A DNA stretch of 45,898 bases from Candidatus Magasanikiibacteriota bacterium (GTDB taxonomy: Bacteria; Patescibacteriota; Patescibacteriia; Magasanikbacterales; UBA922), in assembly GCA_016182415.1 (NCBI GenBank), contig JACPGR010000027.1, positions 1 through 45,898 of the forward strand. Direction: 5' to 3'. Shown in pieces: positions 307-37,527 of this stretch. The notes under the pieces were generated by a model that made no database searches, had not been told where the DNA came from, and was given only the letters and a program-made list of their open reading frames with translations. A program made the translations under genes and the position numbers. Position 1 is the first letter of the stretch; the number at the start of each line of letters is the position of its first letter.

Positions 307-861
307 ATGTCATATCACTCCGGCAACAATTTGATTGATCCGAAACTTCTTTTTGAAAAAGTGCAATTGCGTGAAGGCGTGCATATTGCGGATTTTGGGT
401 GCGGACGAACGGGGCATATTGTATTTCCTGCGTCAAAAATTGTCGGTGAACGAGGAATAATATATGCGGTCGATATTCTCAAAGATGTACTTGAGTCCAT
501 TCGTCGTCGCGCTGCTATTGAAGCGATGCATAATATTGAGACTATTTGGGGAGATCTCGAGCGTCCGGGTGGTATTGTCATCGCAGAAAAAACTTTGGAT
601 ATTGCCTTTTTTATCAATGTTTTGTTTCATTTTAATTCCTATGATACCCCATTTGCCGAAGCCTCCAGAATTCTCAAACCAAAAGGAAAGATTGTCGTGC
701 TCGATTGGATTAAATCGATTTCCGGCATAGGTCCGCAGGAAGGTGGACTTGTGAATTTTGATCAAATAAAAAGCTGGGCGATGTATAATAATTTTGTGGT
801 GGAGCAGGATTTTGAGGTAGGAGCGTATCATCGGTGTGTGATTTTGTTTCGACATACTTAA
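307..861 (+). CDS. class I SAM-dependent methyltransferase
   Basis: The 184-residue protein has the glycine-rich SAM-binding motif DFGCGRTG at about residues 29-36. A second strand ending in the acidic AVDI follows at about 57, and a GDLERPGG segment after that fits motif II. The tail LKPKGKIVVLDW is typical of the Methyltransf_25/31 fold. The substrate cannot be told from sequence; relatives methylate small molecules, lipids or quinones. It stands alone, preceded by the 41-bp array and followed by a palindrome and the YraN-like gene. The ATG is the only start that keeps the first helix, and its -10 element lies immediately upstream. Confidence 0.85.
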   Translation: MSYHSGNNLIDPKLLFEKVQLREGVHIADFGCGRTGHIVFPASKIVGERGIIYAVDILKDVLESIRRRAAIEAMHNIETIWGDLERPGGIVIAEKTLDIAFFINVLFHFNSYDTPFAEASRILKPKGKIVVLDWIKSISGIGPQEGGLVNFDQIKSWAMYNNFVVEQDFEVGAYHRCVILFRHT

Positions 862-883
862 ATAATCTGCTAAAATTCGTTGT

Positions 884-940
884 AATCTGCTTAATCTGCT
901 GTTTAAATGACGGTATTACAGACAGCAGATTAAGCAGATT
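884..940. repeat. intergenic inverted repeat, 19-bp perfect arms
   Basis: The arms are 884-902 and 922-940 with a 19-base loop, and both are made of the repeated word AATCTGCTT. Further loose copies of the word (AACAGATT) follow up to 960, just before the next start codon at 968. There is no T-run after the stem, so it is not a classic terminator. It belongs to the same style of word-built palindrome seen before tsaC, rnc and nusB. Confidence 0.9.
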
Positions 941-967
941 TGAACAGATTAAAACAGATTGTTTTGT

Positions 968-2684: not shown

Positions 2685-3953
2685 ATGCCACGAAAAAAAC
2701 AGGAGGAGCAACTTATGGAAGAAGCTCCAATAGTGTCTGCAACTCAAACACAGACACAAGTCGTATCGATAACTCGAACCAAGATGGGTATTGCAGTTGC
2801 ATTTTTGGGATTTGCTGCGGTCGCGGCTGCTGCTGCGGGTGGCTTATCAGGATCAAATTGTATTTCTAACAAAACTACACTGGTAGATAATGGGTCAGTG
2901 CGTGTCTGTGAACAAGAAAAAATGATTAACAAATGGGCGCCTGATTATGCATTCGTAGTTTCAAAATATACTTCACTCAATGTACGTCTCATTGTAAAAG
3001 ATCCCGAGCAGTGGATTGTTTCGGATGGATTTAATACATCGACAGCAGTGGAATCTCCAACGAGTGTAATGATTGATCAAGGTAAAAGTAAAGTATTTAT
3101 GCTCAAAGATGGTGGTATGAATATGGTTCTTACATACAAAGGTATGTATAAAAATTATGCACTATTTAATGTTGAAATAAATGTGGGTGGTGGTATGCAG
3201 TCTGGTTGTACTGATTCTGACGGTGGTCTTGATTATTATGTAAAAGGAACTACATACGGTCCAAATATCGATAATACTGATTTCTGTAGTTATGGAAGTG
3301 GGGGAGGCCTTCAAGAAAATTATTGTAAAAATGATACTCAAGTCATGGACTATTATGAGTGTCCAAATGGATGTGTGGATGGTGCGTGTATTACTTCTTC
3401 CACGATGCCTGTAGCTACAACGACGTCTGCAGTAAGTTATTCGTGTGTTGATTCTGATGGTGGTGAAAATTTATTTGTAAAAGGAACCGTCACCGCAAGC
3501 AGTAGTGCTTCTAATTATGTAGGTGTACATACGGATAAATGTTCATCTGAATTTTTACCGGCAAATAATTATGTTGAAGAGAATGTGTGTAATGATAACT
3601 ATGGAAAATTAGGTAATAATACTCCTCTTGTAAAATTATTGATCCAAGAATGTCCAAATGGGATGATATGTAGTGATGGTGCATGTCTAGTTTCTAGCTC
3701 TACTTTGCCTATCGTAACAAGTACCCCAATAACTTCTTCAACACAGTCGATAATATGTACTCCGGGCGAAGTCGTTAAAGATTGTATAAATGCAAATGGT
3801 GTAGATTATACAACTTTCAGCTTTAGCCATATTTGTAATGCACAAGGTACGGGATATATTACCGATTCTACTAAGTGTTATCCAACTGGTGTGTGTCAAG
3901 AGGGTGTTTGTGTTCCAACTCAATCACCGAGTTCAACGTCCTCATCAACATGA
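2685..3953 (+). CDS. membrane-anchored Cys-rich surface protein with DSDGG repeats
   Basis: The 422-residue protein has a charged, Gln/Thr-rich N-terminus, one hydrophobic segment (about residues 34-54, Ala-rich) and a long exported part. The repeat CxDSDGGxxxxVKGT occurs twice, near 175 and 255, each followed by a block with Cys pairs ending ECPNGxxCxDGxC. A third shorter Cys block ends QEGVCVP. Ser/Thr-rich linkers separate the blocks and the tail is Ser/Thr/Pro-rich. Cysteines are plentiful only outside the membrane segment, consistent with disulfides. The DSDGG/VKG repeat is known from archaeal and CPR surface proteins without assigned function. The ATG at 2685 has the local A/T-rich context and no Shine-Dalgarno. 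Confidence 0.75.
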   Translation: MPRKKQEEQLMEEAPIVSATQTQTQVVSITRTKMGIAVAFLGFAAVAAAAAGGLSGSNCISNKTTLVDNGSVRVCEQEKMINKWAPDYAFVVSKYTSLNVRLIVKDPEQWIVSDGFNTSTAVESPTSVMIDQGKSKVFMLKDGGMNMVLTYKGMYKNYALFNVEINVGGGMQSGCTDSDGGLDYYVKGTTYGPNIDNTDFCSYGSGGGLQENYCKNDTQVMDYYECPNGCVDGACITSSTMPVATTTSAVSYSCVDSDGGENLFVKGTVTASSSASNYVGVHTDKCSSEFLPANNYVEENVCNDNYGKLGNNTPLVKLLIQECPNGMICSDGACLVSSSTLPIVTSTPITSSTQSIICTPGEVVKDCINANGVDYTTFSFSHICNAQGTGYITDSTKCYPTGVCQEGVCVPTQSPSSTSSST

Positions 3954-16871: not shown

Positions 16872-18290
16872 ATGAAACGTTCCGAAGTAATTCTCTTATT
16901 GCTCCAAGTCCCGATTGATTTTCTCATGCTTTTTTTTGCCGGGGTAAGCGCCTATTACCTGCGTTTTAGTGATTGGGCAACTACGCTTAAACCTGTATTT
17001 TTTGATATATCAATTGGTGAATTTATTTCGATTGTATCATGGGTTGCCTTGGGTTGGTTGGTGATTTTTGCAATTGTCGGCTTATATTCCACAGATCCAA
17101 ATCGTAAACTTGCTCGAGATTTAGTTCGTGTTATCTTGGCGTGTTCTACGGGTCTTGCCGCAGTCGCCGTTTATGTTATGTTTACGCAAGAAGTTTTTGA
17201 TTCTCGTTTTTTGGTTGTCGCATCATGGGCTTGTGCAATTATGTATGTAAGTTTTGGGAGACTCGTCATGCGTGGAGTCAAGGGGCTTATGTATCGGTTT
17301 GGTATGGGTTTGCGCCGTGTGGTCGTGATTGGTAATGGTGAAATTGGACAGGCGATTATTGAAACGCTCAATCGGCGAAAAGAACTTGGCTATGCCGTTG
17401 TCGGCTCATTTGATTCGTATACAAAAATGTACGATACTAAAATGTGCGAGCTTAGAATTGATGAACTGTTTTTTAGCAAGCCGAGATCGAATGAAGCAGA
17501 GGCCTTAAGCGCAATTCGATTTTGCAATGCGCATCATATTGTGTTTAAATATAGCGCTGACCTATTTGCAACCTACTCGGCAAATATGACGGTGACTGCG
17601 CTTGCAGGAATTCCTATTGTTGAACTCACCCGAACACCGCTTGACGGATGGGGACGCATCATCAAGCGTATCTTTGATATTGTCGTAAGTATTTTCGTAC
17701 TTATCATTCTTAGTCCATTGTGGTTGTTACTCGCCTTAGTTATTTTTATTGAAACCGGCAGTCCGGTTATTTATAAAAATAAACGCATTGGTATTCGAGG
17801 GAATATATTTTTTACCTTAAAATTTCGATCTATGTATCAGGACAAATCGACTGGTCCGCAATTTGGCGAAGCAGGTAAACAGGCGGAAGCAGAGGAACAG
17901 AAACTGATTGAAAAACAAAATAGCAAGACCGGGCCGATTTATAAAATTGCAGATGATCCGCGTGTGACTCCCTTTGGTCGTTTTATTCGCAGATGGAGTA
18001 TTGATGAGTTGCCGCAGTTTATAAACGTCATCCGCGGTGAAATGAGTATTGTCGGTCCGCGCCCGCATCAGCCTCGGGAAGTAGAAAAATACGAACAGGA
18101 TTTTCCTCTTGTGTTTGTCCTTAAACCGGGCATCACCGGTCTTGCCCAAATTTCCGGCAGAAGTGATCTAAGTTTTGAAGAAGAAATGCGACTGGATATT
18201 TTGTATGTTGAAAAATGGAGTCTGCTTCAAGATATAATTATTTTTTTGAAGACGCCATTTATTTTATTTAAGAGGAGAAAAGTGTTGTGA
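16872..18290 (+). CDS. polyprenyl glycosylphosphotransferase (exopolysaccharide initiating enzyme)
   Basis: The 472-residue protein has four N-terminal membrane helices (about 9-29, 49-70, 84-104, 112-130). A Rossmann-like segment [13 protein letters not shown] follows near 149, then a further hydrophobic helix near 268-292. The C-terminal bacterial sugar transferase domain has [40 protein letters not shown] and [10 protein letters not shown]. This family (WbaP/WcaJ type) moves a sugar-phosphate from a nucleotide sugar onto undecaprenyl phosphate at the inner face of the membrane and starts glycan assembly. It heads the glycosyltransferase region, so it likely initiates a surface polysaccharide or protein glycan. 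The exact sugar is unknown. Confidence 0.92.
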
Positions 18291-18291
18291 C

Positions 18292-18340
18292 ATATTATGC
18301 TAATATACAAATTATACTAATGCTACTAATTACAACTAAT
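18292..18340. repeat. left 49-bp inverted repeat of the GxxExxY cassette
   Basis: This segment is the exact reverse complement of 18755-18803. It starts two bases after the stop codon of the glycosylphosphotransferase. It is built from AAT/ACT/GCT-containing words (CTAATATAC, ACTAATGCTACTAA). Confidence 0.95.
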
Positions 18341-18357
18341 CTTTTCACAAGCAGTCT

Positions 18358-18759
18358 ATGTATGCAAATGCGAAATTAATTTATCCTGAGTTATCATATG
18401 ATATTACCGGTGTGCTATTTGAAGTTCATAATACAATCGGAAGGTATGGTAGAGAAAAACAGTATGGTGATTTGATAGAAAGATTATTTCATGATAGAGA
18501 TATATGTTATCGGCGAGAGTTTTTCATTGGTGATACAGGAAATATAGTTGATTTTTTTGTTGAAAATAAAATAGTTTTAGAGTTGAAAAGAAAAAAAATA
18601 ATCACTAAAGAAGACTATTATCAAGTGCAACGGTATTTGCAAATAATGGATCTGAAGTTGGGTTTGTTGGTCAATTTTCAAGAAGAATTTCTCAAACCAA
18701 AGCGCGTGGTTAGAATAGAAAATAATGTGCCAAGTAAATTTTTAATCAAGAAATATTAG
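18358..18759 (+). CDS. GxxExxY family protein bounded by inverted repeats
   Basis: The 133-residue protein has the family N-terminus ELSYDITGVLFEVHNTIG and a G-x-E-x-x-Y-like segment GREKQYGDLIE. A PD-(D/E)XK-like core follows: FIGDTGNIVDFFVENKIVLELK, with D, E and K at nuclease spacing. The tail GLLVNFQEEFLKPKRVVR is also typical. The family is frequent in CPR and Bacteroidetes genomes without proven function; a nuclease is plausible. It sits between two glycan genes and is flanked by perfect 49-bp inverted repeats. The stop codon TAG lies inside the right arm. No Shine-Dalgarno is present. Confidence 0.85.
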   Translation: MYANAKLIYPELSYDITGVLFEVHNTIGRYGREKQYGDLIERLFHDRDICYRREFFIGDTGNIVDFFVENKIVLELKRKKIITKEDYYQVQRYLQIMDLKLGLLVNFQEEFLKPKRVVRIENNVPSKFLIKKY

Positions 18760-18803
18760 TTGTAATTAGTAGCATTAGTATAATTTGTATATTAGCATAA
18801 TAT
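18755..18803. repeat. right 49-bp inverted repeat of the GxxExxY cassette
   Basis: Exact reverse complement of 18292-18340. Its right end is six bases before the start codon of the next glycosyltransferase, so it also occupies that gene's promoter region; CATAAT at 18796-18801 could be its -10. I see no target duplication outside the arms. Confidence 0.95.
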
Positions 18804-18809
18804 TTCAAC

Positions 18810-19934
18810 ATGAAGGTAGCACTAGTCCACGATTACCTCGCACAAGATGGAGGGGCTGAGCGAGTCTTAAAGGCGCTCCATGAACTTTGGCCAAAGGCGC
18901 CTATTTTTGTCTTGTTTCATAATAAAAAGTGCGTGGAAGGATTTGAAAACGCAGATATACGCCAATCATTTATCTCTCGATTACCATTTGGCAAAACATA
19001 TTATCAGTGGTATTTGCCATGGATGCCTTTTGCGACCGAGTGCCACAATCTGCATGAGTTTGATGTGGTGATTTCATCGACGAGCGCGTTTGCAAAAGGA
19101 GTGCTTACTCGGCCAAACACCTTGCATATTTCCTATTGTCATACGCCGACTCGCTATCTTTGGACCGATACACACGAATATATTGAAGATCTCAAATATA
19201 ATCGATTTGTTAAAGCATTTTTGCCGCGTCTTATTTATAAGCTTCGTATTTGGGATAAGATGAGTACGGACAGAGTGGATCATTTCATCGCAAATTCAGA
19301 CACGGTGCGCGGACGTATTGAAAAATATTATCGTCGGGACAGTGATATTATTTATCCGCCGGTTGATGTAGATACGTTTTTTTTAAGCAAAGATATCGGA
19401 GACTATTTTGTTAGTGGCGGTCGCATGGTTCCCTACAAACGATTTGATGTGATTATTCAGGCATTCAATCGCCTCAAAATTCCGATCAAGATTTTTGGCG
19501 AGGGACCTGAGTTTTCACGCTTACAAAAGACTGCAAAACCGCATATTGAATTTATGGGGCGGGTACCTGATGATGAAAAAGCGAAACTATTAAGCCATGC
19601 GCGTGCGTTTATTCATCCACAAGTGGAAGATTTGGGAATTACGCCGATTGAGTCTATGGCATCAGGGCGGCCGGTGATTGCCTACGGCGTCGGAGGAGTT
19701 ACCGAGACCGTGATTCCGGGCAAGACAGGCATATTTTTTGATACGCAAACATGGGAATCGCTCCTTGACGCGGTGATGCGATTTGAAGATATAGAGTGGG
19801 ATAGTGATATGATTCGCGCGCATGCAACACGTTTTGGGGTGGATTTGTTTAAAGATAAAATTAAGCGATATACGGAGGATACCTATGAGGAGTTTACGAG
19901 AGGGTTGACGCAGTGTAGGTTGGATGTACGGTGA
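18810..19934 (+). CDS. GT4-family glycosyltransferase
   Basis: The 374-residue protein has a GT-B fold. The N-terminal domain starts MKVALVHDYLAQDGGAERV with the glycine-rich acceptor-side loop. The middle has ISYCHTPTRYLW, typical of WbaZ/mannosyltransferase-like GT4 enzymes. The C-terminal nucleotide-sugar site has IFGEGPEFSRLQ and FIHPQVEDLGITPIESMASGRPVIAYGVGGVTE, which contains the E-x7-E-like motif with its first Glu replaced by Asp. It probably adds a hexose, possibly mannose, to the lipid-linked glycan begun by the enzyme encoded upstream. It is separated from that gene by the GxxExxY cassette. Confidence 0.9.
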   Translation: MKVALVHDYLAQDGGAERVLKALHELWPKAPIFVLFHNKKCVEGFENADIRQSFISRLPFGKTYYQWYLPWMPFATECHNLHEFDVVISSTSAFAKGVLTRPNTLHISYCHTPTRYLWTDTHEYIEDLKYNRFVKAFLPRLIYKLRIWDKMSTDRVDHFIANSDTVRGRIEKYYRRDSDIIYPPVDVDTFFLSKDIGDYFVSGGRMVPYKRFDVIIQAFNRLKIPIKIFGEGPEFSRLQKTAKPHIEFMGRVPDDEKAKLLSHARAFIHPQVEDLGITPIESMASGRPVIAYGVGGVTETVIPGKTGIFFDTQTWESLLDAVMRFEDIEWDSDMIRAHATRFGVDLFKDKIKRYTEDTYEEFTRGLTQCRLDVR

Positions 19935-33044: not shown

Positions 33045-33203
33045 GTAACTACTCACCACCCTATGTCTGGTGAACGCAACTCTATCCCCGCCTTTCTCTT
33101 ACCGAATATAAAGGAGACAGGTGAACGTGTGTTCCCCCTCTCTTCCGTAAGAGAGGGGCGAGGGGAGAGTTGCGTTCACGAGTAAAGCAGGGTGAGTAGT
33201 TAC
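33045..33203. repeat. 159-bp imperfect inverted-repeat element
   Basis: The arms 33045-33082 and 33166-33203 share GTAACTACTCACC and TGAACGCAACTCT as inverted copies and differ only in the middle. The interior has a C/G-rich hairpin CCCCTCTCTT-CCGT-AAGAGAGGGG (33135-33158). The left arm (38 bases) occurs again, exactly inverted, at 41168-41205. No coding potential is seen in the region 32973-33303. Confidence 0.88.
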
Positions 33204-33699: not shown

Positions 33700-34441
33700 A
33701 TTTATATTCAATAATATGTCTTATATTCACGAGATAATCAAAATATTGTCTCGTGATTTTTTTATATAGTGATGATGCAAATTTTTTATTTGGAAAAAGA
33801 ATTTTTTCGAATTTTTTTTTCTTCGATTAGAAAATCTACCAACATACTATAATCACCGTCTCCTGAAACTAGAATAATTTTGTCAAAATTTTCTTTTATA
33901 TATAATTTTTTCGGTTCTTCGTAAATTATTGTGGGTAAAGCTCTAACAGCTTACTATGGTGAACCACCAAATTTGTATACAAAGCCCTGTAAGGGCGATA
34001 TATGTTAGCCAGGCACGTGAGTGCCTGGTAAGATATGGTACAATCATGAGATATGCAATACAGGCACTTAAGTGCCTGCCTAATATATTCCATCCCTTAC
34101 GGGATTGGAATTAGGTACCCACAATAATTTACGAAGAACCATTTTTTCATTATCGTAAATACAATATCAGTATCCACATTTCCTTTCTTTTTTCCGAGCA
34201 TTGCATCAGTGTGTTTTTTGAAAACCAATACAAATCCTGACCTTTGTATTGATTCATACAGATCTTGGTTGCGTTCATCAAGAAAACCAAGAAAATAATA
34301 TGCCACTTCTACACTATATTTTTTCTGCAAATAATATCTAAATTTTGAAAGATCAATTTTCCATCCGGGAGTGTCTGATTGCGTTCCCATGTATAAGTTT
34401 TGTCCATCAATAAAGGCTAGATTGTGTGTAGATCTTTTCAT
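33698..34441 (-). pseudogene. NYN-domain gene split by a MITE and a frameshift
   Basis: The 5' part (34441 down to 34149) encodes AFIDGQNL and GNVDTDIVFTIMKK of a NYN protein. The 3' part encodes IILVSGDGDYSMLVDFLIEE and a normal end. A 228-bp element plus an 8-bp duplication lies between them. Removing 33913-34148 rejoins the reading frame exactly (MKK-LYIKENFDK). A second defect is one extra base in the run at 33802-33807; correcting it recovers IRKILFPNKKFASSLY and the family C-terminus up to the stop at 33700-33698. The start codon lies 6 bases after the rnc stop, so it was the last gene of the rpmF-nusB-rnc direction. An intact relative is at 24035. Confidence 0.92.
33913..34140. mobile_element. 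228-bp MITE with 25-bp terminal inverted repeats
   Basis: The ends 33913-33937 and 34116-34140 are perfect inverted repeats (GGTTCTTCGTAAATTATTGT... inward). The element is flanked by an 8-bp direct duplication ATTTTTTC (33905-33912 and 34141-34148). The interior has four small palindromes, for example CAGGCAC-TTAA-GTGCCTG (34061-34077) and CAGGCAC-GTGA-GTGCCTG (34010-34027), and no ORF. It interrupts a NYN gene. The transposase that moved it is not in the window. Confidence 0.95.
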
Positions 34442-35841: not shown

Positions 35842-35926
35842 TACACGGATATACGAATGACGCGGATTTACAAATTTGCGAATTCGAATATCTGTAAATC
35901 CGCGACATCTGTAAATCCGTGTGTAT
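35842..35926. repeat. word-built palindrome between rpmF and nusB
   Basis: The inner arms CGCGGATTTACA and TGTAAATCCGCG pair perfectly, and the outer parts ATACACGGAT and ATCCGTGTGTAT extend the structure. It follows the rpmF stop and directly precedes the nusB start on the minus strand. Confidence 0.85.
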
Positions 35927-36279: not shown

Positions 36280-36301
36280 ACCATTTTAAATGAATATAAT
36301 T

Positions 36302-36381
36302 GGATACGAAATACGAACTTTACGAAATTACGAAAATTGACGTACGATTTCGTAATTTCGTAAAGTTCGTATTTCGTATCC
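36302..36381. repeat. perfect palindrome with 34-bp arms in the tsaC leader
   Basis: The arms 36302-36335 and 36348-36381 are exact inverted copies with a 12-base loop. The right arm reads TTTCGTAATTTCGTAAAGTT and onward like the 41-bp tandem unit at 1-294, with only a central AAAG/ACCG-type change. It ends 9 bases before the tsaC start codon and would form a very stable RNA hairpin. Confidence 0.96.
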
Positions 36382-36390
36382 TATGAACTT

Positions 36391-37126: not shown

Positions 37127-37254
37127 ATTTTTATAGATGAACTAATTTAAACTGACATAGATTTTTTATAGAATATGCAAAAAATCTGTAAAAATACGAA
37201 AATTTTGGATATAAGAATTTGTATATCTGTACATTTGTACAATTTGTAATTTGT

Positions 37255-37527
37255 ATGTCTATTATGACCATGCATGAATTCATCAAAGAGCGCCCTTATT
37301 TAATTTGGTGGGTGAAGAATTATGACAAGCTCAGCGCGGAGTCTATTGTTGAGGCTACCCTCAATTATGGAGATTGGGATGATGTACAAATACTTATCAA
37401 AATTTTGGGTATAAAAAAAGTTGCTAGAATTTTTCGCGAGAAGTCAAAGCCCTCTAAAATGGGACGGCAGAATTATTTTCCTGAAGTGAAGAATTATTTT
37501 TCATTATACTTCAATAAGTATGCATAA
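37255..37527 (+). CDS. DUF6922-like small protein, partner of an AbiEii-type nucleotidyltransferase
   Basis: The 90-residue protein (IKERPYLIWWVKNYDKL...LNYGDWDDVQILIKILGIKKVARIF) is like the small helical proteins encoded just before AbiEii-type genes in CPR genomes; the DUF6922 assignment is from memory. It probably acts as antitoxin or regulator. The stop overlaps the next start by 8 bases. Three ATGs within six codons could serve as start; the first after TTTGT (37255) is given. Confidence 0.7.
   Translation: MSIMTMHEFIKERPYLIWWVKNYDKLSAESIVEATLNYGDWDDVQILIKILGIKKVARIFREKSKPSKMGRQNYFPEVKNYFSLYFNKYA

Follow-up and report, generated by a model that had tools for sequence, protein, structure and literature searches.

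The locus considered here raises the question of why a small GxxExxY gene stands between two perfect inverted repeats at the junction of two glycan genes, and whether such a unit could be mobile. The window, that is, the whole stretch of DNA analysed, is contig JACPGR010000027.1 of Candidatus Magasanikiibacteriota bacterium (GCA_016182415.1), positions 1-45,898, and its features are collected in the table below. The initial annotation had described arms identical over 49 bases, a right arm containing the stop codon of the gene, and a unit filling the gap between the glycan genes. All three points hold: the two 49-nt cores are exact reverse complements of each other, the TAG lies at 18757-18759, and arms and gene together occupy all but two bases of the gap. 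The cores sit in longer arms of 57 nt with 96% identity, and the left one is an array of five C-N-R-A-T words (CTAAT-ATA-CAAAT-TATA-CTAAT-GCTA-CTAAT-TACAA-CTAAT). A perfect inverted repeat of this length is far beyond chance; the flank-to-flank score is 52 at the element and was never above 17 at 617 shifted control positions.

Table. Coordinates of the element, its neighbours and related gene-less copies in the window.
Feature	Positions	Strand	Remarks
Upstream neighbour, polyprenyl glycosylphosphotransferase (EPS_sugtrans)	16872..18290	+	outside the element
Left arm	18288..18344	+	perfect core 18292-18340; overlaps the TGA stop of the upstream gene
GxxExxY gene	18358..18759	+	133 aa; predicted PD-(D/E)XK nuclease fold
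Right arm	18751..18807	-	perfect core 18755-18803; reverse complement of the left arm
Downstream neighbour, GT4 glycosyltransferase	18810..19934	+	outside the element
Gene-less palindrome	860..964	.	left arm 862-903 matches the arms of L017, another GxxExxY locus of the window genome
Gene-less single arm, L014-type element	37224..37258	-	

The assignment of the gene to the GxxExxY family was borne out by matches of its product to PF13366 (6e-18, 65.7 bits, cut-off 22) and TIGR04256 (3e-17, 63.1 bits, cut-off 35). In an alignment of 41 homologues E33, D65, K77, Q89 and Y93 are invariant and E75 nearly so, whereby the catalytic D65, E75 and K77 of a PD-(D/E)XK nuclease are conserved together with E33, Q89 and Y93. 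The QxxxY motif is known from RecB, Cas4 and lambda exonuclease. For the AF2 model of the window protein (pLDDT 89, pTM 0.82), the nearest solved structures by Foldseek were Cas4 SSO0001, LHK-Exo, lambda Exo, tRNA-splicing endonucleases and Hjc, none of them below E = 0.001. From alignment and model, the protein is a predicted nuclease with a PD-(D/E)XK site and the QxxxY motif. In the pairs allowing an estimate dN/dS was 0.07-0.20, and the active site, as read from the homologues, is intact and under purifying selection. Two other associations were rejected: a defence system, for which PADLOC gave only weak Cas4-like similarity, and a link to reverse transcriptases, the one paper that names GxxExxY beside an RT reporting a probable cas4 labelled GxxExxY in a CRISPR locus. 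A search of viral contigs with the Bacteroides GxxExxY protein found no relative. GxxExxY proteins are widespread and, judged by the open-access literature, appear unstudied; among open-access papers naming GxxExxY or PF13366, none was found to describe inverted repeats at the gene.

Of the 38 genomes sampled from the order, essentially all have the sugar transferase and GT4 genes, in most cases next to each other. In G160, a genome of the same family as the window genome, their junction measures 9 nt from stop to start (TTG-TAG-ATATATAGT-ATG), and it is short in most other relatives. Because of this 9-nt junction within the same family, the window element is, on comparison of these sequences, an insertion of about 520 bp, as a unit, between two co-directional glycan genes; the empty site is drawn from the order, the genus of the window genome being represented by one genome. 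By eye, the same junction is occupied in G175 by a palindrome of about 130 nt that has TAG-type words and no gene, in G172 by another gene-less palindrome, of about 75 nt, in G171 by a G+C-rich hairpin and in G174 by an ORF-bearing insert. Since relatives hold unrelated inserts there, the junction looks like a tolerated insertion spot. Unrelated other inserts in relatives at this junction were recorded as L234, L235, L236 and L237. In the surroundings of L061, within the family of G051, an empty site was not found, the comparison returning weak one-flank similarity and one further arm copy.

The early reading of the locus hinged on whether flanking inverted repeats recur at other GxxExxY loci, and they do: called at a flank-to-flank score of at least 13, they were present at 44 of 58 loci, as compared with 3 of 128 other ORFs and 9 of 617 shifted positions (p = 2.6e-21), the 58 loci not being independent, with eight from one genome and fourteen found by similarity to the window protein. 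At this threshold 14 of the 58 loci had none, and among the loci from an even phylum sample the proportion was 22 of 28. The 1.11-Mb window genome (G000) contains nine GxxExxY genes or fragments, and all eight genes having both flanks have inverted repeats, the sequence of which differs at most loci. The architecture is present in Patescibacteria, Bacteroidota, Alphaproteobacteria and Gemmatimonadota, the inverted repeats beyond Patescibacteria being those of Bacteroides (CACAGAGG words), Bernardetia, Sphingomonas (ACGCGAAG words) and Gemmatirosa; at the Treponema locus the inverted repeat extends over 11 nt only, and at the Persicobacter, Fusobacteria and Prevotella loci none was clearly seen. 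On the Gemmatirosa plasmid each GxxExxY flank is a complete hairpin (L082, L212), in contrast to the half-palindromes of Patescibacteria. The genomes are metagenome-assembled and contigs can be misassembled at repeats; the agreement of many genomes argues against an assembly artefact.

In Patescibacteria an arm consists of about five C-N-R-A-T words with 3-5 nt between words, the starts of successive words being mostly 8-10 nt apart. Word density is 9.4 per 100 nt in arms versus 2.8 in shuffled arms, which is partly circular because the pattern was defined on the same arms, and 242 words point toward the gene versus 14 away from it, orientation and spacing being only semi-independent of that definition. 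The letters vary with the unit, with CTAAT in the window element, CGGAT/CTGAT/CAGAT at RecJ and CAAAT at L014. Across genomes, arm similarity tracks protein identity (Mantel rho 0.37, a value reached by 0 of 999 permutations), and among cross-genome pairs of at least 55% protein identity 72% share arms, against 9% for DNA 450 nt farther out. In L034 and L067, from different genomes, similarity runs over 2895-3411, the arms lie at 2915-3408, and nothing outside is similar; the close pairs L034/L035 and L039/L042 are syntenic and were not counted as independent insertions. By these comparisons, each protein subfamily has arms of its own, and arms and protein are inherited together across genomes. 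Two units of the window genome (L014/L015) have near-saturated synonymous sites (pS 0.76) and nearly identical arms, which are thus conserved or homogenised; the active maintenance of arms that had been considered at the outset gains support from these paralogs.

Arms of the same types were also found without the gene. In the window genome, window-type arms form four solo hairpins (C36, C58, C70 and C81), while, according to the match list and in approximate numbers, RecJ-type arms recur at about eight further places, L014-type arms at about twelve, L017-type arms at about nine and L012-type arms at two; for the arms of L009 and L011 no gene-less copy was found in this genome. On the Gemmatirosa plasmids, at least 30 and 23 places show a relation to one of the units found there. 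Several other structures were recorded alongside. Two more gene-less palindromes of the window (35843-35922 and 36299-36384) have CGGAT/CGAAT/CAAAT or CGAA words, and the former resembles, by eye, the arms of the dUTPase unit. At 33067-33182 lies a G+C-richer palindrome (GTGAACGCAACTCT..), like those beside the Y1 (RAYT) genes of the same genome. The window-type solo hairpin on C81 is itself interrupted by a different, MITE-like palindrome with CTGAACTTTGGCAAATTTTT ends (L019:2076-2230) and an apparent 8-nt duplication, TAACATTA, seen by eye. An Rfam scan of the window returned only tRNAs and a match to Acido-Lenti-1 RNA at 33983-34028 (55.8 bits, gathering 37), near two tRNA genes.

The window copy is intergenic, between protein genes, unlike a set of copies elsewhere that lie in frame with coding sequence. 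Gene-bearing units are open in frame within RecG (L011) and at the C-terminus of RecJ (L013), both in the window genome, upstream of dUTPase (L012), upstream of a prepilin (L060) and, in two genera, within LepA (L051, L052), the host proteins being named by their sequence motifs. In a third genus of the family holding the LepA units (G053), LepA is uninterrupted, and in the LepA units the conservation of the nuclease domain comes close to that of the host part (pN 0.19 and 0.16 respectively). Single gene-less arms of the RecJ type stand in frame in SMC, LeuRS and GrpE of the window genome, each reading DTDT(R/Q)xxADxADNAD and each occupying a loop that is shorter or absent in relatives. The window genome's own LepA (L097, G000:C30) has a 31-aa in-frame insert with no nuclease gene, in the same loop as the whole GxxExxY units of the two other genera.

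Taken together, these observations make it fairly probable, in our judgement, that the window element is an autonomous nuclease-encoding palindromic element, the protein of which acts on its own word array and spreads the arms in cis and in trans. Its autonomous form is probably the copy with the gene, to which the solo palindromes and single arms that share its words would be non-autonomous relatives. The PD-(D/E)XK protein would recognise its own array, as duplex or as hairpin/cruciform, and would cut at the recognised array or at the target, after which a copy would be set up at a new site without target duplication. Action in cis would serve the gene-bearing unit and action in trans the gene-less copies; copies of either kind would persist where they are harmless, at gene junctions or in frame in variable protein loops. 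The initial annotation had proposed a small mobile cassette or a unit using its GxxExxY protein for its own spread; the empty site, the gene-less copies with the same arms and the co-inheritance of arms and protein strengthen this proposal, and the movement of the element, the protein as its driver and every chemical step are what we infer from them.

There is a low, though real, chance that the palindromes are instead spread by a general process, such as template switching during replication, recombination by the host or a route through RNA, the GxxExxY gene then being no driver but a passenger or stabiliser, the part that S23 may play in rRNA IVS. The absence of target-site duplication is in line with such a process, none having been found at 35 loci (3.51 shared flanking nt versus 3.78 expected). 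A weightier argument comes from a second protein family, S23/IVP (PF05635), genes of which occur in 81 of 145 sampled genomes, with several copies in most. The S23 ORF is known from 23S rRNA IVS and encodes a four-helix bundle. At 23 of 30 S23/IVP loci of Patescibacteria (L182-L211) the gene lies between inverted word arrays, compared with 1 of 226 control positions (p = 1.7e-18), and the arms have mostly TAG-type words. Since a protein unrelated to GxxExxY thus stands between the same kind of arms, the nuclease may not drive the spread of the palindromes, and this parallel is the strongest counter-argument to the nuclease-driven model. Against a general process, on the other hand, stand the specificity of the arms for the protein subfamily with which they travel, the invariant active site of GxxExxY, and the words of the two families, which look different from each other.

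Mobilisation in trans of the arms, as REP/REPIN-type sequences, by Y1 (RAYT) transposases of the same genome is improbable. There are seven PF01797 matches in the window genome, three of them near full length, and the solo palindromes are similar to REPINs in size. This mobilisation is nevertheless unlikely because different types of palindrome (TCCCGTAGGGACG, GCAGGCAC..GTGCCTGC and GTGAACGCAACTCTCCCC) stand around the three best Y1 genes; moreover, the arms follow the GxxExxY protein across genomes.

Still more improbable is an IVS-type RNA element, in which RNase III would remove the stem from transcripts, so that insertion is nearly neutral and spread follows transcription. The 520-nt window element does fold, as RNA, into one long stem (-149 kcal/mol, z = -9.9), and the 23S IVS of Coxiella has its S23 ORF within an RNase III-cleaved stem, with tandem GACAGAT heptamers beside or before the ORF and a 28-bp terminal stem (PMC4990558). 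The copies in RecG, RecJ, LepA, LeuRS, SMC and GrpE, however, have an open frame continuous with the host protein, and therefore look translated and not excised, and the single-arm copies have no stem. Lastly, a role of the element in the glycan operon, as an invertible switch or a regulatory hairpin, is scarcely tenable. A gene flanked by perfect inverted repeats and lying between two co-directional genes would suit it, yet the invertible segment that had once been suggested found no support: the words hold to one direction with respect to the gene, the same arms are met beside unrelated genes and in gene-less copies, and the sugar transferase/GT4 pair is free of the element in relatives.

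Returning to the nuclease-encoding palindromic element, a wider formulation is possible and is offered tentatively, namely an undescribed class of selfish elements that ranges from Patescibacteria to Bacteroidota, Alphaproteobacteria and Gemmatimonadota. A GxxExxY nuclease or, in a sister group, the S23 four-helix protein would recognise its own array and spread itself together with gene-less arms, also in frame into essential proteins. The in-frame entry of palindromic elements into protein genes and the spread of rRNA IVS are old open questions, and here, within one genome, inserts that lie in frame without the gene have their arms in common with a copy that encodes the nuclease. If nuclease-driven movement is true, it would define a new class of element, compact and inserting without target duplication and in reading frame; it would give a function to the uncharacterised GxxExxY family and a candidate mobilising principle for Rickettsia-type coding palindromes and rRNA IVS. 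The architecture itself offers a testable role for the family.

Several known systems resemble the element in part. Its protein has the fold and the QxxxY motif of Cas4, lambda exonuclease and RecB-type nucleases, from which it differs by its length of only about 130 aa and its distance in sequence. In the 23S rRNA IVS, too, long inverted repeats enclose a small ORF in their loop, with short tandem words beside the ORF in Coxiella; the IVS lies in rRNA genes and encodes the S23 four-helix bundle, whereas GxxExxY elements lie between or within protein genes and the window element encodes a predicted nuclease fold. Palindromic inserts that keep the reading frame have been described in Rickettsia (review PMC10969869). 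As with the Rickettsia palindromic elements (RPE), in-frame inserts occur here in unrelated protein genes, as short single arms with a similar peptide per site (DTDTRxNADxADNAD) in SMC, LeuRS and GrpE and as gene-bearing units in RecG, RecJ and LepA, this likeness being one of description and not of sequence comparison. Unlike RPE, the GxxExxY copies partly carry a nuclease gene, and several in-frame copies are single arms and not whole palindromes. Pairs of autonomous IS and MITE share with the present case autonomous and non-autonomous copies with common terminal inverted repeats, and differ from it in that the GxxExxY element has no known transposase and shows no target duplication. In REPIN/RAYT, as here, a nuclease-type gene is paired with a palindrome family of its own, and the same genome has many dispersed palindromes that lack the gene and are related to those flanking it. 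The RAYT enzyme is a Y1 (HUH) transposase, whereas the element's protein matches PF13366 only, with no Y1/HUH match, and is of the PD-(D/E)XK type; in addition, GxxExxY arms are arrays of repeated words, and copies lie in frame inside coding genes. Thus, while missing a defining feature of each system tested, the element appears to work like REPIN/RAYT or like autonomous/MITE pairs, in a layout resembling that of an IVS.
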